A DNA stretch of 64,000 nt from NCBI RefSeq assembly GCF_000003815.2, contig NC_049992.1, positions 541,579 to 605,578 of the forward strand, in the 5' to 3' direction. The DNA is from Branchiostoma floridae. Its lineage: Eukaryota; Chordata; Leptocardii; Amphioxiformes; Branchiostomatidae. A program made the position numbers and the translations under genes. Below, piece by piece: positions 1-54,745 of this stretch. Position 1 is the stretch's first letter, and each line of letters opens with the position of its first letter. The notes beneath the pieces are model-generated. The model saw only the letters and a program-made list of their open reading frames with translations. It had not been told where the DNA came from and ran no database searches.

Positions 1-1550
1 ACTCTATATCTATTTCTCAACTGTACTGTACTGTACTCACTAGACACACACACACTTTACTATACTCTCCTTCACACTACACTGTATTCTCTTCTGTACT
101 TAAATGTACTCTAGTCTACTCTACTACCTTATCTTATCTACTCATTACATTCCCTTATGAATGATTCTAATTCATTCTGTTCTTTTTCAGATAGACATTA
201 TAAATTTCTCCATCCATCCCAACAAGCAAATTTCCATTTCAAGACCAAGAAAGTGTCTTGAAGATTGAAGGAGTAGAAAGAAATCAAATCGGTGTGGCTC
301 AACCAACTGCCTTTTACGTAGGATCTAAAAATGAATGTTCCATATGCAGCAGTGTTTGCTGTACGAAGGACAGCTGGACCTTAAATGCCCTGGCTGACTG
401 TACAGTTTGACTATTGACTAAACAGTGACAGGGTAGCCACCTTTTGCCTTTTACCCACATGTAACTGGCAGGGACCGAGGCATGCGTGTTCGCTACAATC
501 TGGCCACAGTCAGGGGAAGGGAACTAGGAAGTGTGCCAAGTTGGGCTCAACTTTGGCAATAACAATGAATGAACTTCAGCTCACGACAAGAGTCCGTAAG
601 ACAGGATACTCCGTAAAGTGGTTATAGCATTTGCAGTGTGGCAAAGGTGTTTGATATCTCTTAAACTACTGATATGCCAAATGTAGACTAAGTCATCAAA
701 TGGATCTTGACTTTTGGTCCAAAGACACTTTACAGACCAAGAGTACAGACAAAAATAAGTTGTTCACGTTAAGACTCATCTCAGCAAAAAAAGCTGTTAT
801 TGAATTTGCTCAGAAATTATGTAAATGAGGCAATAATTTACATGATTTACATCTAGCAACAATGAAATTCAAAAAGTACAAAGTCTGCTTCTACCATTTG
901 CATTTCTCTGGTATGCAAAGCAAGACTTGTAGTTGGGTGTGGAGACACTGTAGACAAAACATGGGCCTTATTCCTTACATCAACGTCAGGCAAGACAAAT
1001 TCATTTTCTGGATTCTCATATATCTCAGGGTAGACGTTCAGCAAGGCAACAAGATGTATACCAAGGTGCAGACAAAATTCTCTCTGATTCTGATTGTCAT
1101 ATTAAAGTTCCAGTTTGGCTATTTTTTTCCAAGTCAGTGAACAACAAATTCCATAGCTCTGGCCTCAAATTCAAGTCAACCGCTACATTCTAACTCCAGC
1201 CCTGGCCCTTTGGAAAGAGACCTGAAGTCTACTCTATCCAGAACTTTGGTGATGAAACGAGATGTCTTAAAATCCGTTCCTTCGTAGTCAGCTTGTCTCT
1301 GATCATGATCCCAAGATCTTCTCTGCCCTCGTTAGCCGCTGCGCTCGTTAGGCGGGGTAACGATGGCAGTGGCCTTGGCGGGAGAGGATGACTGACGGCC
1401 TGGCTGACTGGGGATAATTGGTGCAGCCTGGCACCGTCACTTAAGGTCGGGCAGGGGTCGCCAGGAAGGGTCACGGGCGCCAAGAAGAAACACATCAGCA
1501 AGGAAACTTCCACACCAACTGACAAGACTTATTATGTCTAGATATTGGAT
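1..1550. other. no gene recognised; low-complexity start
   Basis: The first 170 bases are a degenerate CT/TA-rich tract built from TACTG and TACTC steps. The rest is AT-rich unique-looking sequence. Short open frames on both strands lack recognisable domains and show no convincing splice pattern. If the Ski gene extends leftward, this could be intron, but nothing seen here proves it. Confidence 0.5.
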
Positions 1551-1551
1551 T

Positions 1552-1800
1552 TAGCTTCTGACACTTTGATAGCATGGGTTCGAAGTTTGTGATACAAGAA
1601 ATAAGAATGTTGTATTTTGTTTCTAACACTTAGAGGGCAATGGTTCAAAGCTTGCACTATACAAGAAATATAAATATTGTATTTTGTTTCTAACACTTAG
1701 AAAGCAAGGGTTCAAAGTTTGTCGTACAAGAAATATAAACTTTATATTATTTCTAACACTTGCAAGGTTTCAAAGTTTGTGATACAAGAAATGTAAAATA
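1552..1800. repeat. short tandem repeat, four units of about 58-67 bp
   Basis: The phrase ACAAGAAAT recurs at 1594, 1661, 1726 and 1784. Each is followed by an AT-rich stretch, TTTCTAACACTT and a GGTTCAAAG-like segment. Units are diverged, so this is an old local tandem duplication. No coding potential is seen. Confidence 0.75.
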
Positions 1801-2309
1801 TCTATTATACTTAATTCCCACCATTTACACCGTATGAAAACAAGATTTTGTTTCAGTACAACTGACAAAGTACTGTATTGTAAAACTCACTGTCCCCAAT
1901 ATTCTGTCTCTAATATTCATCTTAGAAATACTTGTCACTAAAACATACTGTAAAGCAATGATCCTTATGTACCGTAAAAAAAGATTTTCTTTTACTAAAA
2001 TGTAAAACAGATTTTAGGCTAGATCGCCCCCCCCCCTTCTAGGCCCCCCATGTTGTCCCCCCTGCCCCCCCCCCCCTACCCTTGCGTGACAGCCCAGTCC
2101 CAATGCTAGTCAGCAGGAAGCAGTGGTCAAGGTTACAAGCCAAGCAAATCTCCAGACGTTTTAGCACATAATTTGGGCCGCAACAATGCATATTCTGGGT
2201 TCTCATAATCTGCCATTTTAGTGTAAACATTCAGGCCTCAACCATTCCCACATTTGGGGATAAACTCCAGCAAGAGACAAGGTGAAGACTTGAATATGAC
2301 TACATTCAC

Positions 2310-2550
2310 TAATCTCCAAGCAGATCCTACAGTAGCATAAGATAGTATCAAATGCTAGGATATGAGAATTCTTGTACACAACCAAAATTAAACTTACTTG
2401 CTTATGTTTCGGTGTCTATCAGACACCTTCCTCAGAGCTTCTGACTGGAGTTCTGCTTCAAATGCTGCCAGAGGAGTGAAGCCGGACTAGGAGATTGTTT
2501 GGCTACCGAAAAAGACTGCCTTTGGCCAGCCATACATACTAATTAGTCAG
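2310..2550. mobile_element. decayed MITE of the TAATCTCCAAGCAG family, interrupted
   Basis: The left end TAATCTCCAAGCAGATCC and the internal phrase GCATAAGATAGTATCAAA match the better-preserved copy at 35587-35767. Its internal text (CAGAGGAGTGAAGCCGG then TAGGAG and TTTGGCTACC) resumes at about 2467 after a 101-bp insertion. The right terminal repeat is not recognisable. See the family entries at 19384, 33560 and 62498, where 9-bp target duplications are seen. Confidence 0.6.
2357..2457 (-). mobile_element. short retroelement-like insertion with hairpin motif
   Basis: A 101-bp segment splits the surrounding MITE and is flanked by the direct repeat TCAAATGCT (2348-2356 and 2458-2466), which looks like a target-site duplication. 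It contains a small hairpin (GGTGTCT, loop ATC, AGACACC, 2411-2427). On the minus strand this is followed by GAAAC. Assignment to a retroelement rests on recall that hairpin-GAAAC motifs recur near invertebrate retroelement ends, so it is tentative. Confidence 0.45.
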
Positions 2551-3338
2551 GAACCAACAATATAAATTGGTCTGGCCCAAACCTGCCTGGCACCACAGTG
2601 ATTCCCTGATAAACTAGGATGTTCCGAGGCCAGGAAAGGGGGACAGGTTTTCTGGGTTTCCTTCATGCCTTCATACAAATATGAGAATGAATATCAACAC
2701 TAGATCTTTTACATTCACTGTAAAAAAAAAGATATAATACAAATTGCTCACAAATAAGTTCCAAACCACGTCTGAAACCTTCAATGAACCTTGCCTGTGA
2801 CAAGATTTTTTTTCTCCTAATTTTATTTTGGGTTTGTGTCAGGGGAGTGCGAGCTGATTGGCTAGACAGGCATGCCATGGCTGTTCCGGGAGGCGTTCAC
2901 CCTCCCCCCGAAGTGGGCGGCTGCCATGCTGGATTGAGAGGAGACAGCTGTGCAGCTTCTGATGCCTTTCACTTCCAGTTGGGTCCTGTTTGCGTGACCA
3001 ACGCAGACAGACCCAGCCTAACTTGAAAGGCGTTCAATAATAAGACCATAAACTTCGTAGACGACGGCAAGATAATTCTAAGAAGCTCCCCCAAGAGGTC
3101 ACTCAGGGTGAAGTGAGCAGGGATTCCTCCCGCATTCCTTAGTATGACACATGGGTTACGCATTTCCTTGCCAGACAGGGCAGTCCCGAGGTCTACACCG
3201 AATTTCTGTAGGTTGGGTTGGCTGGACAGGATGCAGACAATTATCAGACATTTCTGGTTGCGGGGAATTTTGTGGCCCGGAGTCATGTCAGGTAGACAAG
3301 TCGGGAGACACAGCATCCTTCCTGACTGGATGCCACCA

Positions 3339-4995
3339 TAATTAGCAGTTTCCGTCGGTTTCCGTTTGGTCTGCAGCCACACCAATCTGACCTATGGACT
3401 CTAACTTAGTCTAAGATTGTAAGATACAATAATGAAGAACTAGAATACAGTGAAATTGTCCAAAAAGGAGATTGATAATAACTTTGGATAATTAGCAGTT
3501 TCCGTCGGTTTCCGTTTGGTCTGAAGCCACACCAATCTGACCTATGGACTCTAACTGAGACCCCGTTCACATGGGAAAAAAGCAAGTGAGTTAAACGAGG
3601 AATCCGATTAAAATGACCAATCCAAAGCCATGTGAACAGAACTAATCCGATTGGATTGCCCATTTTGGATTGGATTGACTTGGATTGCAATCCACCTCGG
3701 GAGGTGGATTCAGCGCGCGCAATCCGATTGGCGCGCAATCCGATTGACCGAAATCGGCCATGTGAACACAATTGGATTGGATTCGGGCTTGTTTCATGGT
3801 TTTTACGTCATACATACGGGCACAGTGGACATTAGATATACAACCATACCTACAACATGGCAAAAAAAGTATGATACACGGATTAGAAAAGAAGTTTATG
3901 GGCAAGTTTGCTTGCAAAATCATCTTACCGCTATGGTTAACAACCGGACGCCGCAAGATTCGCCGGAACATGTGCACCGGTTCTTTCCAAAAATCGGCAG
4001 TGTGGCAGAAGACCAACTGGTTAATTTTGGCAATATTGCCCATGAAAATAACATGTATGGTTTCGTTTCTCTCCTGTTGTTGGAGCCAATGTCCCAACAC
4101 CACCAAAAAAGCAAATATTCTACGAGAAAAACAGTCGGAAGCGTGTCTAAACAGAAATTTCGAGCTTGGGTCACTTCACTGCATGCAAGCATGGGCGAGC
4201 AGTTTTTTTAAACGAAACACAGACTTTTATTTCAGATAAATACGTGATGAAGTCAAATGTTTTGGTAGCAGTTTGCCTTATTTATGCAACTTCTGCAACA
4301 GATACATTTTATATAGTTAAATGTAGAGTATAATCACACCGCGCGTAACATTTCCACCCCCAGTCTAATAGACTATCCCAATGACCCCGTATGACCCAGA
4401 GGCCGCCACTTTCGTCAGTGTGTGTTGCGGACCATCGACGCGTCAAAATCTGACCAAAGCCGGCCGATTTCTCAAGTTATAATCAATTATATCAATGTCG
4501 CTACATCCTTCAAAATTATGAGGTAGTCTGGCAACATTTTGGAAAAACTACGCGTGCCCGCGGTGGTCGTTGGAAACACGACGCGTGCCGCGGTAAAGAG
4601 TTTAATCCGATTGTGTGGTCGCGGTCGTAAGTTTGAGTTTAATCCGATTGTATAAAACTCATGTGAACACATTTTTTTTAATCCGATAGAAAATTTCAAT
4701 CGGATTCCTTGTTTAACTCACTTGCAATTTTTTCATGTGAACAGGGTCTTAGTCTAAGATTGTAAGATACAATAATGAAGACCTAGAAGTCAGTCAAATT
4801 GCCCAAAAAGAACACACAAGGGAATGATAACAACTTTGGATAATTAGCAGTTTCCGTTGGTTTCCGTTTGGTCTGAAGCCATGACAATCTGATCTATTCA
4901 CTCTAATTTGTAAGACAGTTTCTGTCCATTTCCATTTTGTCTAAAGACAAACCAATCTCACCTCTTGGCTCTCCGATTGTAAGAAACAATAAGAG
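3339..4995. repeat. 150-bp tandem repeat, second unit split by a transposon
   Basis: Units begin with TAATTAGCAGTTTCCGT at 3339, 3489 and 4841, and a degraded fourth unit follows from about 4917. The first unit is intact. The second matches it up to CTCTAAC (3555), is interrupted by a 1.19-kb inverted-repeat element, and resumes at 4749. The intact neighbour therefore serves as the empty-site control for the insertion. Confidence 0.85.
3559..4748. mobile_element. PIF/Harbinger-like DNA transposon, non-autonomous
   Basis: The ends form terminal inverted repeats beginning GACCCCGTTCACATG on the left and GACCCTGTTCACATG on the right (complement). Similarity continues through AAGTGAGTTAAAC and AGGAATCCGATT. 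The target duplication is TTA on the right (4749-4751) and TGA on the left (3556-3558). The intact neighbouring repeat unit has a single TTA at 3406-3408, so the left copy has one mutation. Three-bp TWA duplications are typical of PIF/Harbinger. ATCCGATTGG-type repeats crowd both ends and could be transposase-binding sites. Open frames at 3651-4211 (+) and 3642-4106 (-) show no DDE transposase or Myb-like domain I can recognise, so I call it non-autonomous. Confidence 0.8.
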
Positions 4996-8344: not shown

Positions 8345-9450
8345 AGTGTTACATCATCATCACCCTATAAGGGGCCCTGCGGAATTCCTGCACTACTCAG
8401 GGCTTGGTGCATCTTTTACTACGGCTCGTTTTGTAAGATTTTCTAGAGGAAATTTTTTTACAGGAAATTTTTACAGTACTTTTACAGAAACACAGGAATA
8501 TTTTTACTGATGACAATGATACCAATTGTTTTTGTATGGAGCGTTCCCACATCACCCTGTAAGGGGCCCTCCTGAATTCCTACACAGCCTCTCTATTCTG
8601 GGGTGGTTGGATCTTTTTACTATAGATTCTTTTGTAAGATTTTTAAGAGGAAAATAAGAAAAAACAGAAACATTTTAACTGGTAACTTGATGACAAATTG
8701 TTTTTGTGTGGAACATTATATCACCACCATGTAAGGGGCCCTCCCCAATTCCCACACTGCCTATCTATTCTGGGGTGGTTGGATCTTTTACTATGGCTCC
8801 TTTTGTGAGATTTTCAAGAGGGAAATAAGAAAAAACAGGAACATTTTAACTGGTAACTTGATGACAAATTGTTTTTGTGTGTAACATTATATCACCACCA
8901 TGTAAGGGGCCCTCCTGAATTCCCACACTGCCCATCTATTCTGGGGTGGTTGGATCTGTTACTATGGCTCCTTTTGTGAGATTTTCAAGAGGAAAATAAG
9001 AAAACAGGGACATTTTTACTGGTTACTTGATGCCCAATTGTTTTTGTGTGGAACATTTTATCATTATCATTATTATTTAAGGGGCCCTCCAGAATTCCTA
9101 TATTGCCTACCTTAGTAGTGTCTATTCAGGGCTTGGTGGATCTTTTAGTAAGTTTTACTATGGCTCTTTTTGTAAGATTTTCAAGAGGATATCGACAATA
9201 AGAAAAAAAACAGGGACATTTTTACTGGTTACTTGATGACAATACTACCAATTGTTTTTGTGTGGAGGTTTGACATCACCCTGTGAGGGGCCCACTGAAA
9301 TTCCTTCACTGCCATCTTGTCAGGGCTTGCTGGATCTTTTATGAAGACTCCTTTTGTAAGATTGTGGAGGAAATTAGTACCTGAACTATTTTGTAAATTT
9401 TGTTAATATTGTTATTTTTGGTTGGCTACTTGATGAAAATTTTACCAACT
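8345..9450. repeat. tandem array, six units of about 171-206 bp
   Basis: The core TAAGGGGCCCT recurs, with GGGG at 8371, 8563, 8735, 8906, 9081 and 9287. Each unit then has an AATTCC(T/C) step, GGTTGGATCTTTTACTATGGCTC, TTTTGTAAGATTTT, a poly-A/G tract and CAATTGTTTTTGTGTGGA. Internal units are closest to each other and edge units are more diverged, as expected from unequal exchange. Non-coding. Confidence 0.85.
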
Positions 9451-25208: not shown

Positions 25209-25222
25209 GCTAAAATAAATTA

Positions 25223-25242
25223 TGTCTGTCTGTCTGTCTGAG
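25223..25242. repeat. (TCTG)n microsatellite in putative Ski intron 1
   Basis: TCTGTCTGTCTGTCTG lies about 30 bp beyond the Ski exon donor, on the intron side. Simple repeat only. Confidence 0.9.
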
Positions 25243-25270
25243 AGATAAACAAGGCGTAAAAAAACAACCC

Positions 25271-25272
25271 AC
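25271..25272 (-). other. splice donor of the Ski first coding exon
   Basis: Minus strand reads AAGCAG followed by GTGGGT. CAG|GTGGGT is a good donor and falls right where similarity to the Ski family fades after FKRKQ. The last codon CAG is complete, so the intron would be phase 0. Read-through gives only hydrophobic, non-conserved residues before a stop at 25210. Confidence 0.8.
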
Positions 25273-26211
25273 CTGCTTCCTTTTGAAGCGGTTCATGAAG
25301 TCGAACTTGGCCTTCATGTCTTCCAGAGCTTCTTGGAACTCCTCTGTGTCTTGGTCTTTGCTGAGGAGGACGTAAGATCGCCAGTTGGCGGAGTCGAAGC
25401 CCCAGTGGCAGGTACGGTTTTCCTGGGCCTTGTGACTGTGACAGACGAACTTCTGCGGACTGAAGGCTCCGTGACAATCCGTGCACTCGATGCACTGGGA
25501 GAACGGAGACTCGTACAGATCGGGACAGAAGACGCCCTTACACTTGCCGAAGCACTCGTGGTACACCTTGAAAGACGTCTTGGTCTTGTCTCGGGGTTTA
25601 GTCGGGGTTGGTTGAGGGGTGGCCCCGCTGCGGCGGTGTAAGAGCTCGTTACAGAGCCGCTCGGCGTCCGTCTTGGTGATCAGTCCGCAAGACGCAGCGG
25701 AGTAAGGAAGGATGCCCATGACTTTAAGGGTCTCGAGCTGCTCGGGAGAACATCTTGAGCAGAAGATGTGGAGCTCGTCGCAGACCACGTTGATCTGTTG
25801 GAGGGAGAAGTCCCGCAGGACGGAGTTGAGTATCTGCGGGAGGCAGAGCCGCTTCTCCCCGCCCACGATAAAGCAGGAGATCGTCTCCCCCTCGAGGAGG
25901 GTCTCCGCCCGCTCGGCTGAGCCGCGGTCCTGCGGGATGAACACCGGGAAGTGCTGCGGACCCACCCCGACGGAACTCGCGAGGCGAGCCGCGAACGTCT
26001 CCGCTAGATCCTTCCTGCTCGGACCGGCGCCCCCCTCCCCACTACTCCCGGGTGAGTCGGGGTCGGCCCCGGCGATGTCCCGGAGCTTGGCGGCCTCGGC
26101 CCACCGCGCAGCGAAGCCTGCCGGGCCCGACAAGCTGCTCATAGCCGAGGCTTGGAAATGCTTGAGTGTCTGGTGCAAGTTAGCGTTGAACACTGCCGTG
26201 GGTTGCTCCAT
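25273..26211 (-). CDS. Ski: Ski/SnoN-family transcriptional corepressor, first coding exon
   Basis: The exon encodes 313 residues from a start at 26211 (context GCATTATGGAG). Ski proteins are nuclear corepressors that bind Smad2/3 and Smad4 and recruit NCoR/HDAC to shut down TGF-beta and BMP target genes. Seen in order: an N-terminal segment [19 protein letters not shown] (about 12-30) like the R-Smad-binding region; a Gly/Ser linker (45-66); the Dachshund-homology domain (about 90-194) with [40 protein letters not shown] and the family hallmark [12 protein letters not shown]; then the SAND-like Smad4-binding domain (about 214-308) with [11 protein letters not shown], a Cys/His cluster (C240, C243, C246, H258, H260) and [15 protein letters not shown]. 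The coiled-coil C-terminus is absent and should be on later exons. In-frame codons continue 53 residues upstream to 26370 but look non-conserved, so I prefer the internal Met. GC-rich relative to its surroundings. Confidence 0.95.
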
Positions 26212-27150
26212 AATGCGTGCACACGGCCAGTGTTTTAAAATGGCAAGATAGCCGCCAGAGTTACAGTCCTCTTCTGGTACTGAACAACACACCACGTTTT
26301 TTCCCACAGATCGAAGAAAAAAAAATACCTCACAAGTCACACAGAGATCCGGAAAAACAACAATCCTCACTCCGAGTCTTTCTCCATCTCACACCGATGC
26401 CAGTTCACGCCGAACATCTTGGGTTTTTCCTAAATTCCTGGTTGATTTTCCCTTTCCCTGTGCACCGCGAGAGAAACCCTTGCCAGTCCCCCGGTCGTAC
26501 TCTGGAATTTCAATTTCGAAAACAGGCCACGATTCGGGGCAGCGAGGCGTAGACACACACACACGCGGTTAAAACCGGCCACGGAGAATTTCTGGACACA
26601 CAGGCCGCGTGGATCGCTTCTCTACACCACACGATGTCTTCCCACTTCACGGTCAAGTGTATAGTCCGAACGTCTTAGAAGGAGAAACGGTTAGAAACGT
26701 CTTGCTCCTTGCGTGGAAGCGGCGGTACTGGAAAACAAGGTCGTCTCGTCACAGCGCCTGGCTCTGCGGCTCTTCCCGCCGCGCGCGCACTCCCCCCGGA
26801 AACACCCACGCAGACATCAAACCTCAAACAATTTTTCTTCTTCCTCCAGACTAAAATCATTTCCCCGGACAACATCCATCTTTCTAAAAACAAAATAACG
26901 AGGATAAATCACAACATTTCTTCGACAGACTGAGGAAGAGGATTTTTCTTTATTTCCTTTTTCGCTGGAATTTAGAAAAGTGAGCGAATGTCTGGATATG
27001 TTTGGGGAAAACAAGTGTCGCGCCCGCGGCGGCTGTTTTGCATAACGCGGCGGAGTAAAGCCGGCAGTCTGGCGGGCCGCATGCCGCCGCAGCCCGGCCC
27101 GATGGGGGCGGGGCTACCGGGCTCGTGGCGCGAAAACAACACGGGAAACC
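26212..27150 (-). promoter_or_regulatory. CpG-rich 5' leader and likely promoter of Ski
   Basis: This stretch, directly upstream of the Ski start on the minus strand, is rich in G+C and CpG compared with the AT-rich flanks, especially at 26700-26830 and 27010-27140. Short open frames on both strands lack domains. No TATA box is placed with confidence and the transcription start cannot be fixed. The promoter call is an inference from position and composition. Confidence 0.45.
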
Positions 27151-30351: not shown

Positions 30352-30423
30352 TCCCATATGGTCTAGTGGTTAGGATTTGGCGCTCTCACCGCCAAGGCCC
30401 GGGTTCGATTCCCGGTGTGGGAA
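30352..30423 (+). tRNA. tRNA-Glu (anticodon CTC)
   Basis: The 72-nt cloverleaf is complete. Acceptor TCCCATA pairs with TGTGGGA (one T-G pair). The D-arm carries the A box (TGGTCTAGTGG). The anticodon stem TGGCG/CGCCA holds the loop CTCTCAC with anticodon CTC at positions 34-36. The T stem CCGGG/CCCGG holds TTCGATT, giving the B box GGTTCGATTCC at 30402-30412. Discriminator base is A, CCA is not encoded and no intron is present. A TTTT run at 30430-30433 is a good RNA polymerase III stop. It closely follows vertebrate tRNA-Glu(CTC) and, being without mismatched stems, looks functional rather than SINE-derived. Confidence 0.95.
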
Positions 30424-34943: not shown

Positions 34944-35485
34944 TACAGTCAAACCTGTATTAGTGGCCACCTCTACAGAGGGGCCACCTGTCCATAGTGG
35001 CCACTTTCTGTCGGTCCCTTGGGTATTTTATCTACAAGTTGCCACCTCTATACAGAGGCCACCTGTCTATAGTGGCCAAATTTGTCTGGTCCCTTGAGTG
35101 GCCGCCATAGACAGGTTTGACTGTACAGTCAAACCTGTATTAGGGGCCACCTCTACAGAGGGGCCACCTGTCCATAGTGGCCACTTTCTGTCGGTCCCTT
35201 GGGTATTTTATCTACAAGTTGCCACCTCTATACAGAGGCCACCTGTCTATAGTGGCTAAATTTGTCTGGTCCCTTGAGTGGCCGCCATAGACAGGTTTGA
35301 CTGTACAGTCAAACCTGTATTAGGGGCCACCTCTACAGAGGGGCCACCTGTCCATAGTGGCCACTTTCTGTCGGTCCCTTGGGTATTTTATCTACAAGTT
35401 GCCACCTCCATACAGCGGCCACCTGTCTATAGTGGCCAAATTTGTCTGGTCCCTTGAGTGGCCGCTATAGACAGGTTTGACTGTA
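34944..35485. mobile_element. three head-to-tail copies of a 178-bp TA-flanked MITE
   Basis: Elements 34946-35123, 35126-35303 and 35306-35483 each start CAGTCAAACCTGTATTAG and end with its complement ACAGGTTTGACTG. A single TA separates neighbours and bounds the array, so the period is exactly 180 bp. The copies differ by only a few substitutions (for example AGTGGCC/AGGGGCC near the start, GTGGCTAAA in copy 2, CCATACAGCGG in copy 3). TA target sites fit Tc1/mariner. An inverted single copy is at 14139. Confidence 0.95.
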
Positions 35486-36259: not shown

Positions 36260-36318
36260 CTCGGTGAATACAGTACGGTGCCCATCTCCGCCTCTACAGC
36301 CCTTGGGCCACACATTTC
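36260..36318 (-). mobile_element. SINE tail fragment
   Basis: Contains CGGTGCCCATCTCCGCCTC and CAGCCCTTGGGCCACACA, shared with 44118-44165 and 46850-46900. On the minus strand it is the 3' portion of the SINE described at 44118-44352. Confidence 0.65.
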
Positions 36319-37730
36319 ATTTTGAAAGTCTTCCAGCAGGGCGTATCACTTAACTTTACGCTACTTTAAGTATAGATCATCAGTTAATTTTGTATTTCTC
36401 GTTCCTACTTTTTCTGTCACCCCTTCTCCTATGTGACGATTGACGACCACTGGTGACAGTGACGCATGACGTCAGTGATCAATCTTGGTTAAACTGGTTC
36501 CAACATCTGCTGAGACGAAACAGAACACCTCTGACACACGTGACCTTCAACTCGGGTTACCCGCGGCCATGAAATCTCGGCTTGTAGTGTCCGGTGTCCG
36601 AACCGAACTCGGGCGGGCAGAAAATCGGGAAGGTCGACTGTGAAATGGGGAGAATCCCGCCTGACAAGGGCGAACAGAACGACAATGTCAAGATGGCGCC
36701 CGGGGAACACTGGACGACAAAACGTTTGGTCCCCTCCTCCCGGGTAGGGGGTGTGGGGAGGGGGGCAGTGATAAATGACCTTCGGCGCCTGGGAGAGACA
36801 TTCGATACGTACGGTTAAGTTGATTGATCAGTTTCGGAAAGGTTGCCGCGAACCTGCAAGGTCAGATTCGTGACCCGAATGACCTCCAACTCAATCCCTT
36901 CGAACATCAAGGTATAGAACGCGCGCGACGCATGACGGGAATAAGAACTCTTGAAAAGGTTTGCTACAATGAAAGTGTGACAAGGATGGATGAGGTTCGG
37001 TAGAGAATTAGCAGCCTCAGATTACGAGAATTCAGAAATCCGGTCTCTTTGTGAGACGGAAAGAAAGAAAAACCTCTCAGGATTTAGAAAGTGAGACAAA
37101 GACGCCGCAAAGTGAAAGAAAGTGAGGAAATCGTCTGCAACAAAAACTAAGCTTAGTCTCAGGTAACCAGAAATAATTTGCAAGATCATTTGCCTGCGTC
37201 TTCTGTTACAGCCATGTATTTTACACAAAAGTCTTAAATTTGTTCACTTTTATAAAACCCACAGAAAAAAAGTTGAATCATAAAAAAATTCTATTGAATC
37301 TACCCGAAACTTACGGGAGGATAAAACAACTCCGTCTTCTGTAAAAGCCTTGTATTTTCTTCACCGAAAACGCTTAGATCTGTTCACATTTTCCACGATT
37401 TGGACAAAAAAAGGTGGAGTTAAAGTTCCCTCGAATCTACCCGAAGTTTTATAACAGGAGGATATCGAAAACAGCTCCACAAAATTGTCCAGGGAAAAAT
37501 GACCCTTGTGGGAAGCGCCGATTTACATTTTCTTTTAAACGCCACCCATCTGTGTCGTCGTTTGTACCAGGTTTATAAAAGGTAAAACTAAATCACATCG
37601 CCAACGGGCCAGAACATGAAATCCTACCCTTTCCGCTTGTCTGACCACCAGGCCACCTTGTCGTGCCCGTGGGAAGGCACTCTATACACATATGTCCACA
37701 CTCGGCCCAGGTGAAAATTAATGAATGAAC
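36319..37730. other. no gene recognised; GC-rich patch with YY1-like and CRE-like sites
   Basis: Around 36460-36800 GC content rises. TGACGTCA (36469-36476) is a CRE core and CAAGATGGCGCC (near 36689) resembles a YY1 site. Frames on either strand have no recognised domain. The remainder to 37730 is AT-rich and featureless. Promoter or enhancer activity is only a possibility. Confidence 0.35.
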
Positions 37731-38759: not shown

Positions 38760-38990
38760 ACTTATTTTAACAGTGCCACATACACAGTACAGGCAGAAGG
38801 TTAAAGGGAGTCTTTTGTTTTACCTCCCAGGTACCCATTTTAAACTTGAGTGAAGATGAGGAAGGTCGTGTATAAAGTGCCTTTCCCAAGGGCACAACGT
38901 CAGGGGCACGGTGGGTATCGAACTCGGGACCTCTAGATTCCGAGCCGAACACTCTACGGTAGTCTACCAGTTACGCAACACACGACGCCA
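38760..38990 (-). mobile_element. tRNA-derived SINE
   Basis: Minus strand: head near 38990 with an A-box-like TGCGTAACTGGTAGAC (38962-38977), then a B box GAGTTCGATACCC (38913-38925). GTTGTGCCCTTGGGAAAGGC follows, a core I recall from marine-invertebrate SINEs. A further repeated block (GGGATGGACCCTGATC to GGTTCTTTAACGTGCTCG, 39065-39020) lies just upstream. Tail not defined. Confidence 0.7.
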
Positions 38991-42682: not shown

Positions 42683-43112
42683 TTGGGAGGATGCGTCACA
42701 TAGGTCGTGCGACCGTCGCACGATCGCTAACTTCGGGCATTTTTTAGAACAAAAATGTAGATCTACCTCTTCTGCGAAGTTCAACTGTCTTGGTGCACAA
42801 AACGCTGTTTTGGATCCATGTCGGTGGTTGGTTCTGTCACGGCCTGCTTGAAAATTCTATAGCATCAAAATCGTACGACGATTGCTCCACGGACCACAGG
42901 TCGTTGTAAAATGCTAGAATTGGTCAAAGAGACAAATAATATATATGCCATCCCCAGTCAACTAAGTCCTCTCGCGTGTAATCTGTCTATCTGGCAATTT
43001 CTACTATTTTCCACAAAGTCAAAACAATGTTGATAATGAGACAGTTAGCTGATTAGACTTAACGGTTATTAGCATCAACCTCGTCTTGACTTTGTCTTAC
43101 TTTTGTTGCAAC

Positions 43113-43236
43113 CTATTCTCCAAGCAGAGGTTGGGCCTCGGGGAAAGTAGTGGCCGGAATGGTTAGCGCCTCTCACCGCTCGCGGAAATACCTCGACCAC
43201 TATAATCCCCGCCACCCAACCTCTGCTTGGAGAATA
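43113..43236. mobile_element. 124-bp MITE, CTCCAAGCAGAGGTTGGG type, with tRNA-like interior
   Basis: TATTCTCCAAGCAGAGGTTG and its complement at the right end are perfect inverted repeats. Inside, GGAATGGTTAGCGCCTCTCA then CCGCTCGCGG recalls the D-arm and anticodon region of a tRNA or SINE. Flanks GTTGCAACC and CCAGTTATT do not match. Confidence 0.75.
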
Positions 43237-43391
43237 CCAGTTATTGCCTCTACTACGACTCAGACAGGGAGACGGGAGTTTACGACCTCAAGAGCTTTAC
43301 GACACTAACTCACTCTTGTCGTAAAATCCCAGACAGCGCCGCCTGGAATCGGACTGGAATGGGAGGGTTTGTGTTGCTGCGTTAAGCCAAG

Positions 43392-43801
43392 GGCACAACC
43401 CGCCGTACGTGCAAATACGTGCTGTGTACGTGCCAAAACGTAGGCAATCTTTCGGGATCCGTAAGTGGTGCGTACCGCCTCCCTACGAACTCGTATGGAA
43501 TCCGACGGATTTTGAAGCACGCAGACACGCCGAAGAACTTAACGTGGAGCCAAAACTTTGTCTGCCATCGGGCTGCGGATTCGCCCCCCTACGTGCCAGT
43601 AAGCACGGGCGACGCGCTTGCCCTGTACAGCCTGAACATTTTCAGAAATGTTTGTAATTGATACGCAATTCAGACATGTACATTGACTGCCATGTATCTA
43701 CAAATAAACTATTCAAACTATTAAAAAAAAAATAAAAATACCTGGCGGACGTGGCCTCACAAAAAATGTACGGACATATTGAACGTACGGCGGGTTGTGC
43801 C
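43392..43801. mobile_element. 410-bp TIR element, GGCACAACCCGCCGTACGT ends
   Basis: The left end GGCACAACCCGCCGTACGT is mirrored exactly at the right end (43783-43801). The interior includes AACTATTCAAACTATT and an A-run and repeated ACGTGC/CGTACG motifs. Target duplication not identified. Frames inside have no domain. Confidence 0.75.
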
Positions 43802-44117
43802 GTTAGCTTTAGACTTGACAACATCATCCTGTAGATTGTCAAAAAAATTCTGTTATTGACAGGATGAATTTGTCAATAGCCACCTCCTTGCAATTAAGAA
43901 TCAAAGACAAGCACATAAAAAAAAAAAAAAAAAAAAAACAAACAAGAAAATAGGAAAGGCCACTCTAAATGAATATCAAAAAGATATCGAAAAAGAACTC
44001 GAGTATATGGCATATGCAAGGAAGAAAATTTACACATAATAATGATGCATGAGAGGACTATGATGAACAATCCTCGTAAGGTTGTTTTCAAGGGAATTCA
44101 TCTCACACTTTGCGATG

Positions 44118-44352
44118 TGGAGGTACAGCGCCCATCTCCGTTTTCATAGCCCTTGGGCCACACAGGACACTACACTACAGCAGGGGCATAGTCTACTGGC
44201 CATGGTGGTAATGTGTGTGTTCCGTTTCCATACGTTTTCCCATAACTTGGTGCTAAAGTAGAGAAAACAGCATGCACAATTTCCCAGCCTTTGGTATGGT
44301 GAGCCTGGGGCGTGAACCCTCAACTTAAGGAATACACCACCCCCTAGGCCAC
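44118..44352 (-). mobile_element. tRNA-derived SINE adjoining the satellite
   Basis: Minus strand: head GTGGTCAGTGCACGTGG runs into an A box TGGCCTAGGGGG (11 of 12 against TRGCNNAGYNGG) at about 44351-44340. The B box GGTTCACGCCCC (one mismatch) lies near 44318-44307. The body ends in TGTGTGGCCCAAGGGC and GGAGATGGGCGC, the tail also seen at 36260 and 46850. The satellite begins exactly at its head. Confidence 0.75.
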
Positions 44353-46168
44353 GTGCACTGACCACAACAGCAAGGCAGAAAGTGCATTTCCTTTATAAAA
44401 GTTCCTGAAATGATTGAAAGTTTGTAGCCCTTTAATAAGGAATACACGGCACCAACCCTAGGTCATTGCACTGACCACAACAGCAGGACAGAAAGTGCAT
44501 TTCCTTTACAAAAGTTTCTGAAATGATTAAAAGTTTGTGGCACTTTAATAAGGAATACATGGCACCACTCCTAGGTCATTGCATGACCACAACAGCAGGA
44601 CACAAAGTGTATTTCCTTTACAAAAGTTCCTGAAATGATTAAAAGTTTGTGGCACTTTAATAAGGAATACACGGCACCAACCCTAGGTCATTGCACTGAC
44701 CACAACAGCAAGGCAGAAAGTGTATTTCCTTTACAAAAGTTCTGAAATGATTAAAAGTTTGTGGCACTTTAATAAGGAATACACGGCACCAACCCTAGGT
44801 CATTGCATGACCACAACAGCAGGACAGAAAGTGCATTTCCTTTATAAATGTTCCTGAAATGATTAAAAGTTTGTGGCACTTTAATAAGGAATACACGGCA
44901 CTGCCTTGCACTGACCACGACAGCGGGACAGAAAGTACATTTCCTTTATAAAAGTTTATTTATTTATTTAATATTTATTTATAAAAGTTCTGCAATGATC
45001 AAAAGTTTGTGGCACTTTAATAAGGAATACACGGCACCACGCCCTAGGTCATTGCACTGACCACAACAGCAGGACAGAAAGTGTATTTCCTTTAAAAAAG
45101 TTCCTGAAATGATTAAAAGTTTGTGGCCCTTTAATAAGGAATACATGGCACCAACCCTAGGTCATTGCACTGACCACGACAGCGGGACAGAAAGTGCATT
45201 TCCTTTACAAAAGTTCCTGAAATGATTAAAAGTTTGTGGCACTTTAATAAGGAATACACGGCACCAACCCTAGGTCATTGCACTGACCACAACAGCAAGG
45301 CAGAAAGTGTATTTCCTTTACAAAAGTTCTGAAATGATTAAAAGTTTGTGGCACTTTAATAAGGAATACACGGCACCAACCCTAGGTCATTGCATGACCA
45401 CAACAGCAGGACAGAAAGTGCATTTCCTTTATAAATGTTCCTGAAATGATTAAAAGTTTGTGGCACTTTAATAAGGAATACACGGCACTGCCTTGCACTG
45501 ACCACGACAGCGGGACAGAAAGTACATTTCCTTTATAAAAGTTTATTTATTTATTTATTATTTATTTATAAAAGTTCTGAAATGATTAAAAGTTTGTGGC
45601 ACTTTAATAAGGAATACACGGCACCACGCCCTAGGTCATTGCACTGACCACAACAGCAGGACAGAAAGTGTATTTCCTTTAAAAAAGTTCCTGAAATGAT
45701 TAAAAGTTTGTGGCCCTTTAATAAGGAATACATGGCACCAACCCTAGGTCATTGCACTGACCACGACAGCGGGACAGAAAGTGCATTTCCTTTACAAAAG
45801 TTTCTGAAATGATTAAAAGTTTGTGGCACTTTAATAAGGAATACACGGCACCAACCCTAGGTCATTGCACTGACCACAACAGCAGAACAGAAAGTGTATT
45901 TCCTTTACAAAAGTTCCTGAAATGATTAAAAGTTTGTAGCCCTTTAATAAGGAATACACGGCACCAACCCTAGGTCATTGCATGACCACAACAGCAGGAC
46001 AGAAAGTGCATTTCCTTTATAAAAGTTCCTGAAATGATTGAAAGTTTGTGGCACTTTAATAAGGAATACATGGCACCACCCCCTAGGCCACTACACTGAC
46101 CACGACAGCAGGACAGAAAGTGCATTTCCTTTACAAAAGTTTCTGAAATGATTAAAAGTTTGTGGCAT
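44326..46168. repeat. satellite array, 16 monomers of about 113 bp with a 587-bp higher-order duplication
   Basis: AATAAGGAATACA marks monomer starts at 44434, 44547, 44659, 44771, 44883, 45019, 45133, 45246, 45358, 45470, 45606, 45720, 45833, 45946 and 46058, plus a first unit from 44326. Most monomers are 112-114 bp. Two are 136 bp through a TTTA-rich insert. The five-monomer block 44659-45245 is repeated as 45246-45832 (112, 112, 136, 114, 113 in both). On the minus strand each monomer contains GTGGTCAGTGCAATGACCTA, clearly related to the SINE head at 44352. The remainder (CACAAACTTTTAATCATTTC and so on) is not in the SINE body. Confidence 0.95.
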
Positions 46169-46372
46169 TCACAGCCAAAGTTCAACAGAGGTCGTACCGG
46201 GACCAGTTACCTGTGAATGGGTATTAAAGTTGATTAGAAGGCGCGATTTTTTATTTTTATTTTTTTTTTACGAGTTCCCCACAAACCGCCAAACCTTATC
46301 TGTACAACACAGCGGAGACTCGTAAAAGAACTACTCTATACTTCCTTCTGGATACGGGGTCGTGTATCAACC

Positions 46373-46386
46373 GTTGCCATGGTAAC
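46373..46386. promoter_or_regulatory. RFX-type X-box palindrome
   Basis: GTTGCCATGGTAAC is a perfect match to the symmetrical X-box bound by RFX factors, which in animals regulate ciliary genes. It lies in GC-mixed DNA with no recognised gene close by. A chance or transposon origin cannot be excluded. Confidence 0.45.
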
Positions 46387-46842
46387 GCGAGTCGTAAGGT
46401 TGGCTTTAAGAGCGGGTTCGCTGTTGGAGAGTATTCGATATCCGCCGTTACTCTCGTTAAGTGTACTACAGACGTGCGTAAAAACTCCCGGCAGCGACTT
46501 TTTCGGCGAAGGGAATGTTTTTATCAGGCAGGGATAGGGTGGCTGTTATAATATATTTCATGTCGAATCTAAAGTTTGACACGACTTTGGTACAAACGAA
46601 CTCTGAGGAAACTACTTTGGAAGAAGTAGTTTTGCTGGAAGAGTTCACATTTCACTTTCTGGTGCTTTAAACATGGAGACTGAATTCTTCAAACTGCACG
46701 TATAATTCTGAAAGTGTAATTTAGCGTTTATAACTGTATCGTTATAGCTGCAGTCTTGCCTTAGATGTAGTTACATTTTGTAACTTAATAAAAAAAATCT
46801 GTTATCATTCAAATGTCTATACTCTCTTTCATACAGCCCACA

Positions 46843-46962
46843 CGTTTCTGGTGCATAGGTCGGCGCCTATTCTCGCTTCTACGGCCCTTGGGCCACACAT
46901 TTGTGCAAGCACTACAGCAGGGGGCACGCCGACTAGTAGTGGAGTGTGTTCAACTCCCATAT
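46843..46962 (-). mobile_element. SINE copy with GA-repeat at its edge
   Basis: GGTCGGCGCCTATTCTCGC, TACGGCCCTTGGGCCACACA and CTACAGCAGGGGGCACGCC match the SINE at 44118 in the same order and orientation. The sequence then passes directly into the GA microsatellite. Confidence 0.65.
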
Positions 46963-46967
46963 TCTGT

Positions 46968-47246
46968 GGCAGAGAGAGAGACAGAGAGAGAGAGAGATAG
47001 AGAGACAGAGAGAGGGGGGGCAGAGGGAGAGAGACAGAGACAGAGAGAGAGAGGGAGAGAGACAGAGAAAGAGAGAGGGAAAGAGAGACAGAGAGAGGGA
47101 GAGAGACAGAGAGAGAGAGAGGGAGAGAGACAGAGGGAGAGAGAGAGAGAGAGACAGAGAGAGACAAACAGACAGAGACAGACAGAGACAGAGAGATAGA
47201 GAGGGAGACAGAGAGAGACAGGCAGAGAGACAGAGAGAGAGAGAGC
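46968..47246. repeat. (GA)n / GACAGA microsatellite
   Basis: About 280 bp of GAGAGACAGAGAGAGA-type sequence. Long open frames on both strands through it (Arg/Glu-rich and Ser/Leu-rich) are artefacts of the repeat. Confidence 0.95.
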
Positions 47247-52699: not shown

Positions 52700-54745
52700 T
52701 GTCCCTACATGTTCTCTTCCCGCCAGAACCATCACGAACATGCCACAATCCTGTCGTCTGCGTTCCTGTCAATCATTCCTGTCACGCCAACCTCAAGGGC
52801 ACCTCCCCTTTCTCCAGCATTTATAGCATTGCCCAGATTTGACATATCCCAAAATATGCCCATGCATTGCCAACCCATTGCTTTTTCCACACCGTACCAT
52901 CACCAATTTGCTACAATCCTGTCATCTGCGTTCGTGTCAATCATTCCTGTCACGCCAACATCAATTTAGGTGCACTTGTCACTTCCCACATCATTAGTCT
53001 GAAATTACTGTTCTCTTCCCGCCAAGACCATCACTGGCATGCTACAATCCTGTCGTCTGCATTCTTGTCAATCATTCTAGTCACGCCAACATCAAGGGCA
53101 CTTCCCCCTTTCCCTTAGCAGCAACCGTATGTCACATCATATCCTAAATATGTCTACGTGCAATTCGTGCATCTCCAATCAACTTTTCCCGCCATAAGAA
53201 TCACTTTACTTATACGCTCACTGCAATCATATCGCCTGTATTTCTGTCAATCATTCCGCTGTCACAAATAACATCAAGTGCCCTTCATGCGCCATTCCTG
53301 TAACGTTTACCGTATTACACGTCACATCAAAATATACCACATGCCAAACATGTACATCAAATGTGCGCCTCCCGCCTTTAATTATATCATTGTGTAAATG
53401 TCACGATCCTGTCGTCTACATTCCTGTCAATCATTCGAGTCACGAACAGCATCAAGGGCACGTTTCCTTTCCCCACTATAACATATCATAACCCAAATAT
53501 GTCAGCATCTCTAATCAACCCTTCCTTTCGCGCCATTAGTAGCACCAACATGCCACAATCACGTCGTCTGCATTCCTGTCAATCATTCCTGTCACGAACA
53601 ATATCAAGTGCAACCCCTCCTTCCCTGATAACGTTATGTGATAACACATATCTCAACTCTTCATTACCCGCCATTAGCGACATGTCACGTGTACAATCTA
53701 TCGTCTGCGTCCCTGTCAATCATTTCTGTCACGAACATCATGTGCACTTTCCCCTTCTCCGGTATGTCATACAATATCCCAAATCATATAACTTTACACC
53801 TTATCCTCCCGCCATTAGCATCACTGACATGCTACAATCCCGTCGTCTGCGTTCCTGTCAATCATTCCTGTCACGGACAGCACAAAGTGCACTTTTCCCG
53901 CCCTTTCCCCGCTAATGATGGCCTCATTCCCGCCACTGGGGAGTGATATCAGACATACCATTCTGTCGTCTGCGTTCCTGTCAATCATTCCTGTCACGTA
54001 CAAAACCAAGTGAACTTTTCCCGCCCTTTCCCCGCTAATGATGGCCTCATTCCCGCCACTGGGGAATAATATCAGACATATCATTCTGTCGTCTGCGTTC
54101 CTGTCAATCATTCCTGTCAGGTACAACACCAAGTGCACTTCCCCCTTCCCCTGGTAACGTTATGTCATATCATATCCCAAACATGTCTGTATCTCTAATC
54201 AACTCTTTATATTACCCGCCATTAGCGTCACCGACTTGCCACAATCCTATCGTCTGCGTTCCTGTCAATCATTCCTGTCACGTACAAGTTACAACACCAA
54301 GCGCACATTTCCCGCCCTTCCCCGCTAACGATGGCCCCGTTCCCGCCACAAGGGAGAGATATCGTCTGTCGTCAGCGTTCCTGTCAATCAATCCTGTCAC
54401 GTACAACACCAAGTGCGCTTTCCCCTCCTCAGTATGTTATACAATAACGTTACCCCAAACATTTTATCTTCCCGCCATTAGCATCACCGACATCCTACAA
54501 TGATATCGTTTGCGTTACTGTCAATCATTCCTGTCACGTACAACACCAAGTGCACTTTCCTCTTCCCCAATATGTAATACTATATCCCAAACATATCTGC
54601 AACGTTACATCTTATCTTCCCACCATTAGCATGCTACAATCCTGTCGTCTGCGTTCCTGTCAATCATTCTTGTCACGTACAACACCAAGTGCATTTTCCC
54701 GCCCTTCCCCCGCTAATGACGGCCCCGTTCCCGCCACAGGAGACC
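52700..54745. repeat. degenerate tandem array, 14 copies of a conserved 33-bp core
   Basis: The core TCGTCTGCGTTCCTGTCAAT followed by CATTCCTGTCACG occurs with its TGTCAATCATT part at 52767, 52935, 53066, 53245, 53425, 53577, 53714, 53856, 53979, 54102, 54263, 54382, 54519 and 54658. Spacing varies from 119 to 180 bp. Between cores lie looser shared phrases (CCCGCCATTAGCATCACC, CATGCTACAATCC, CAACACCAAGTGCAC). Two consecutive 123-bp intervals (53856-54102) are nearly identical, a recent duplication. Non-coding: frames across it merely translate the repeat. Confidence 0.9.

Follow-up and report, generated by a model that had tools for sequence, protein, structure and literature searches.

Layout of the array and its resident SINE

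Positions 44326-46168 of the window (the whole 64,000-nucleotide stretch of DNA analysed here; C14:541579-605578) hold a tandem array of 1,843 bp, for which Tandem Repeats Finder (TRF), a check proposed in an earlier note on this DNA, returned a period of 112-113. Read along the minus strand, the order is unique flank, 15 repeats of a flank part joined to a SINE head, and lastly the remainder of an old SINE; all share a single orientation, and monomers occur on one side of the resident SINE only. That the array abuts the head of a minus-strand SINE, as the earlier note had stated, was borne out by the tRNA-type SINE that directly adjoins it (profile match 44351-44125).

44326..46168, minus strand, C14:585904-587746: tandem array with a unit of ~113 bp, 5' flank part plus SINE head (TRF, segmentation and alignment)
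44392..46129, minus strand: 15 monomers of 104-146 bp (segmentation)
44945..45090, minus strand: 146-bp monomer with an AT-rich insert of the ATAAATAAATA type
45532..45677, minus strand: second 146-bp monomer, 97.9% identical to the monomer at 44945..45090
46130..46168, minus strand: distal edge, the first flank-type piece of the array, starting with TGCCACAAAC
46169..46420, no strand given: flank past the array, a single candidate region in the genome at the sensitivity used
44125..44361, minus strand: resident SINE, head start ~44361, profile match 44351-44125, 3' tail decayed
44329..44361, minus strand: the part of the resident SINE head common to the monomers, stopping before the B-box-like GGTTCACGCCC

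Sixteen minus-strand anchors were found, and the last of these continues into the SINE; the 16 monomers counted previously do form a tandem array (TRF), but they comprise 15 monomers and the resident SINE copy. The monomers measure 114, 112, 113, 113, 146, 104, 111, 113, 113, 146, 104, 111, 113, 112 and 113 bp, and in a typical one ~36 nt are SINE head while the remainder is the original 5' flank of the SINE. The SINE part runs from GTGCAATG to TATTCCTTA and stops before the B-box-like stretch. Successive units meet at CCTTA-TTAAAG-TGCCAC, in which ~6 letters are of unclear origin and at which no long direct repeat was seen, and the distal array edge meets the flank at TGCCACAAAC. No convincing target-site duplication was found at the array locus, the score of the best candidate being reached by 48/1,000 shuffles and 29/1,000 window segments.

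We characterised the SINE family by searching the genome with positions 44352-43980 (minus strand), which gave 642 candidates, 40 of them scored, with the best non-self matches 77% identical. Twenty-nine SINE loci were fetched, of which 28 entered a consensus (L034 was left out since a body word was not found where sought), 27 a profile (L040 represented the wrong segment) and 28 a base-rate count (L032 is a near copy of L025). In the 28-locus consensus the family starts near CCGGTGCAATGG / CCGGTGCAATGGCCTAGTGGGTAGAGTG and finishes near GGAAGGACTTT. Scored against an A-box pattern, TRGCNNAGYNGG, and a B-box consensus that we take to be the standard ones, it carries the A-box match TGGCCTAGTGGG with 0 mismatches and the B-box-like AGTTCGATCCC with 2. 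The resident SINE matches the 27-copy profile at E 1.1e-36 and is substituted at 36/216 aligned positions (16.7%), with 35 gap positions, against 1.3-4.7% for the other 27 copies, a set made up of the top matches from a single search and so not randomly sampled. The resident SINE is an old copy, or a member of an older subfamily. Further minus-strand matches to the same profile lie at 46847-46987 (E 5.3e-24), 36267-36341 (5.4e-08) and 38913-38957 (0.001). Two of the fetched loci, L025 and L032 (C10, ~9 kb apart), each hold the same SINE and a 168-bp array and are 99.8% identical over 1,100 compared positions; judging by this identity, the pair is a local segmental duplication.

Likeness of the units to the SINE head

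The earlier note had found one 20-mer in each of 16 monomers and had taken it as the counterpart of the SINE head. A SINE head is indeed present, but the 20-mer is exact in only 8/16; in four units one nucleotide is missing, in two a longer stretch is deleted, and both the edge unit and the resident copy depart from it. Moreover its first letters, GTGGTCA, are flank and not head, the family starting near CCGGTGCAATGG. The note had also called for an alignment of the monomers with the SINE head, and had held that a similarity no better than random would count against its reading. When heads alone were compared, the resident copy, two interior variants and the edge head scored 15.5-16.5, which 0/20,000 random window segments (44000-46300 excluded) and 1-4/20,000 shuffles reached. 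The similarity is better than random by this head-only measure, but it does not extend to every comparison: the deleted head variant was not above chance (246 and 800 of 20,000 reached its score), and the whole monomer against the whole SINE was marginal (63/3,000 shuffles). The edge unit against the whole SINE was matched by 27/3,000 shuffles, with its best alignment in another register (consensus 181-214), and the SINE profile by itself detected no monomer.

The strongest argument for the likeness is one of descent, drawn from the letters themselves, since the monomers preserve SINE positions at which the resident copy no longer agrees with its family. Where the resident SINE has changed, they retain GTGCAATG and GCC(A/G)TG as in the family consensus, and a majority of the edge, interior and resident heads fits the consensus at 19.5, versus 15.5-16.5 for any single head.

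These comparisons bear on a different history, in which the array came first and a SINE, perhaps 5'-truncated, later landed in it or next to it, the likeness of the units to the head being accidental. The weak whole-monomer test and the failure of the profile to find a monomer would fit such a history, as would a locus (L028) at which a SINE of the same family adjoins small tandem repeats that lack the head. Yet the resident SINE aligns to the family from consensus position 4 and so is not cut at its head, the monomers align to this head without a shift of register (0/20,000), and the one-sided placement of the units also argues against it; we regard an accidental likeness as very improbable. 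At L028:1741-1833 there are 43-bp repeats (2.2 copies) beside the SINE, with similar words across it, and this arrangement suggests that a SINE inserted into a small existing array; it is the one locus of the 29 sampled with 43-bp repeats close by.

A further alternative is that the flank part itself descends, in decayed form, from a second copy of the family, so that the unit would join two SINE fragments. The final 80 nt of flank align to consensus 73-116 with a score that 14/500 shuffles reach, and the edge unit aligns best at consensus 181-214. However, that flank result is one of two at 14/500 among 12 flank tests, the other ten being reached by 35-472/500 shuffles, and an unfiltered profile search of the window gave no match in the flank part at E up to 10. 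With 14-472/500 shuffles reaching the scores over the 12 tests, we rejected the decayed second copy, whose chance we put as low as that of an accidental head.

We then asked where else the unit occurs, using an assembly whose 431 contigs total 513,431,437 bases. A query with the whole array matched only itself, a weak result alone, as the DNA search skips very common words. A 32-nt pattern from the non-SINE flank (≤3 mismatches) had 12 matches in the genome, 12/12 of them within the array, and a 361-base query covering the distal edge and flank gave one candidate region. The earlier note would have been contradicted by monomers abundant elsewhere apart from the SINE; in the 513-Mb genome the flank part was found only in the array. 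The array is therefore a local minisatellite and not a dispersed satellite, and the term satellite overstates a single-locus array of 15 units. Strictly defined satellite DNA forms long arrays at many loci in heterochromatin, whereas this one covers 1,843 bp at one locus. It lies 0.59 Mb along a 21.8-Mb contig, a position that bears on a subtelomeric assignment only insofar as the contig end is the chromosome end, which it may not be.

Growth of the array and a second array on C12

Units have a mean substitution identity of 94.2% (range 90.3-100%; 105 pairs). The edge unit is the least similar (mean 91.9% vs 93.1-96.3% for the other 14 units), as expected if array edges escape homogenisation. 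A higher-order repeat became apparent when the array was compared with itself at a shift of 587 bp.

44604..45329, minus strand: copy 1 of the comparison (shift 587 bp = 5 units; 726 positions, 8 mismatches)
45191..45916, minus strand: copy 2, which overlaps copy 1 because the shift is 587

At this shift four unit pairs are identical and one pair is 97.9% identical. The divergence of the blocks, 1.1%, is below the 3.2-4.2% heterozygosity given for amphioxus in the available part of one report (PMC12500494), which suggests that the block duplication is young and that length variation at the locus is likely.

Together, the restriction of the flank part to the array and the above-chance head likeness support the proposal of the earlier note, and we consider it highly probable that this unique flank/SINE-head array arose by tandem amplification across the flank-SINE junction, with the SINE there first. 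The SINE would have inserted, and a ~113-bp segment across its 5' junction would then have been duplicated. Unequal exchange or replication slippage between units, the exact mechanism being a matter of conjecture, may have enlarged and partly homogenised the array, and the latest large step still visible would be the duplication of the five-unit, 587-bp block. That the SINE is older than the spread of the array is favoured by the 36/216 substituted positions in the resident copy versus the mean unit identity of 94.2%. Against a junction origin stands the first duplication, which has no direct repeat to explain its start.

When pairs of exact SINE heads with a gap of 75-105 nt were sought, 24 matches appeared, 24/24 at one place on C12, and gaps of 106-136 (24 matches), 4-34 (36) and 60-90 (24) led to the C12 place again and to no other. 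For the 75-105 and 106-136 gaps these counts equal all the matches present in the fetched C12 stretch (L060, C12:2695500-2701500), so neither of the two is a capped total. The scope of these patterns is exact heads, so that mutated heads fall outside it and the C14 array itself would be missed.

C12:2696935-2699929 (L060:1436-4430): second array of SINE heads (115, in units mainly of 25 bp and 21 bp), lying ahead of a nearly full SINE that belongs to the same family

In L060, TRF found a period of 25 at 1436-4209 (117 copies) and again at 4306-4430, 115 heads were counted with ≤3 edits, and the nearly full SINE lies at 4408-4674 (profile 3-267, E 6.2e-91). Sequence ahead of the array and sequence beyond the SINE tail have the 11-nt ATTATATACTG in common (a shared word of 11 nt arises in 4/5,000 shuffles). 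Words from the flank reappear within the array, near longer head copies that reach model position 67-74. The shared word and the flank words inside the array indicate that the C12 array also straddles the 5' junction of its SINE, and the amplified segments of C14 and C12 alike start in 5' flank and stop in the tRNA-related head. This second junction array counts in favour of the origin proposed for the C14 array. As the C12 array was found through a search for repeated heads, the layout recurs, at a rate that such a search does not give.

Two unrelated loci with this layout raise the idea that tandem amplification starts preferentially at the 5' junctions of this SINE family, an idea we hold to be doubtful. 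If it were true, arrays of this kind would keep arising as a side effect of SINE insertion or of Pol III starting transcription at the junction. The two arrays make testable whether SINE 5' junctions seed arrays above chance in an array-prone genome. An account that we think likely, and that is compatible with the junction origin, gives the SINE no causal part: the genome makes local arrays everywhere. Arrays of period ≥30 cover 2,705/88,236 bases (3.1%) around 28 SINE loci and 2,076/64,000 window bases outside the present array, and arrays at amphioxus exon-intron boundaries are in print (PMC3087553, partial text). With ~3% array cover, a chance meeting of an array and a SINE junction is no surprise in this genome. 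In addition, an array over the SINE 5' end was seen at 0/29 sampled SINE loci, and exact heads paired at a distance of 20-50 or 76-152 nt were confined to a single place. The C12 array, sharing the layout, speaks against a bystander SINE, although its discovery by a repeated-head search means that it carries no rate. Other arrays in the window lie at 8488-9063 (period 171), 34944-35485 (period 180) and 53842-54140 (period 123), and such arrays are thus common in it.

Promoter elements, known systems and surroundings

The earlier note had placed half a Pol III promoter in every unit. An A box with ≤1 mismatch from TRGCNNAGYNGG, the consensus we assume, is present in only 2/16 heads, namely those of the resident SINE and the distal edge unit. 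The remaining 14 depart from it at 3-4 positions, in two cases owing to a deletion, and the idea was not upheld for this array. The absence of a B box from the monomers, also stated there, agrees with our scoring, in which the best match in the 15 monomers has 4-5 mismatches (none under 4) and that of the resident SINE 3. In the C12 array the full A box TGGCCTAGTGGG occurs in 49/113 heads, and that array, if 5' junctions of this family do favour amplification, would illustrate a repeated half promoter better than the C14 array.

A regulatory use of the array, through transcription-factor half sites of the AGGTCA type or sites for Pol III factors, seems to us far-fetched. TGACCT together with a GGTCA-spacer-TGACC inverted repeat is found in 12/16 units (we take TGACCT/AGGTCA to be the nuclear-receptor half site), and a SKI-family gene lies ~18 kb from the array. 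However, an inverted repeat copied by amplification counts once, and the scarcity of intact A boxes (≤1 mismatch in 2/16 heads) and the lack of a B box in the monomers argue against a Pol III role. Most likely the array is functionless, a neutral and probably length-variable minisatellite.

The closest likeness in amphioxus is to the 'mirages', minisatellite-like tandem units of 10-160 bp that straddle exon-intron boundaries beside an intact original; the accessible portion of that paper describes concerted evolution inside them with the edges excluded, and a known tendency of the amphioxus genome (PMC3087553). The C14 array likewise straddles a boundary next to an intact original, and its interior units are homogenised while its edge is not (91.9% vs 93.1-96.3%). 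Unlike in mirages, the boundary is that of flank and SINE and not of exon and intron, and a partial survey of gene structure found no gene at it.

According to the excerpts available, the SINE-derived satellites (sSats) of squamates are built from a portion of a tRNA-type SINE, to which some add segments of unknown origin (PMC10702118). Our unit also includes part of a SINE (the head; 0/20,000 window segments), and the array has at least four middle monomers (15 here). As in sSats, a unit at one end of the array runs on into the remainder of the SINE (PMC10702118, excerpts), here over profile positions 9-238 of 268 with a decayed 3' tail. In contrast, the excerpts place sSats at many loci, with units mostly from the SINE interior and, in snakes, with a B box (PMC10702118), whereas our array lies at one locus and its unit is mostly flank; recurrence amounts to one further array with another unit. 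A preference for subtelomeric regions is a further mark of sSats.

For human, 136 cases of 5' partial-Alu tandem repeats beside a full Alu are listed in the part of the study available (PMC3389668). There too the repeated 5' SINE part adjoins a full or nearly full SINE, and most cases lack flanking direct repeats to explain them (PMC3389668, same part); that part does not mention flank within the unit, unlike the C14 case (PMC3389668). In the limpet Patella caerulea, PcH-sat is SINE-related over 118 of 179 bp, and so is partly SINE-related like our unit, but it makes up ~10% of the genome and is pericentromeric, versus one 1.8-kb locus on C14 (PMC11121367, partial text). Further SINE-derived repeats are treated in reviews (PMC9659126, PMC6947457, both as excerpts). 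Our literature search, covering sources in part, found no SINE-junction array in amphioxus. The locus is a clearly readable, well-preserved case of repeat birth by a known route, and nearly all birth stages of a tandem repeat can be read in it: unique flank, junction, units, higher-order duplication and parent SINE.

The nearest recognised gene is marked by a SKI/SNO-family exon at 25213-26388 on the minus strand (Ski_Sno_DHD 1.9e-45, c-SKI_SMAD_bind 4.6e-39); closer to the array, two open frames gave no Pfam match. We also considered, and rejected, an RNA gene at this position: the one tRNA of the window lies at 30352-30423, and the one Rfam match at E≤1 within 43000-47000 lies at 43117-43232 and scores below its gathering threshold. 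It is a weak match of a long near-perfect inverted repeat (plus strand) to mir-6511 (27.5 bits against a gathering score of 87, E 0.12), and probably no more than a hairpin hit by chance. The tRNA, on the plus strand, is predicted by ARAGORN to be a tRNA-Glu gene with anticodon ctc (30352-30423).
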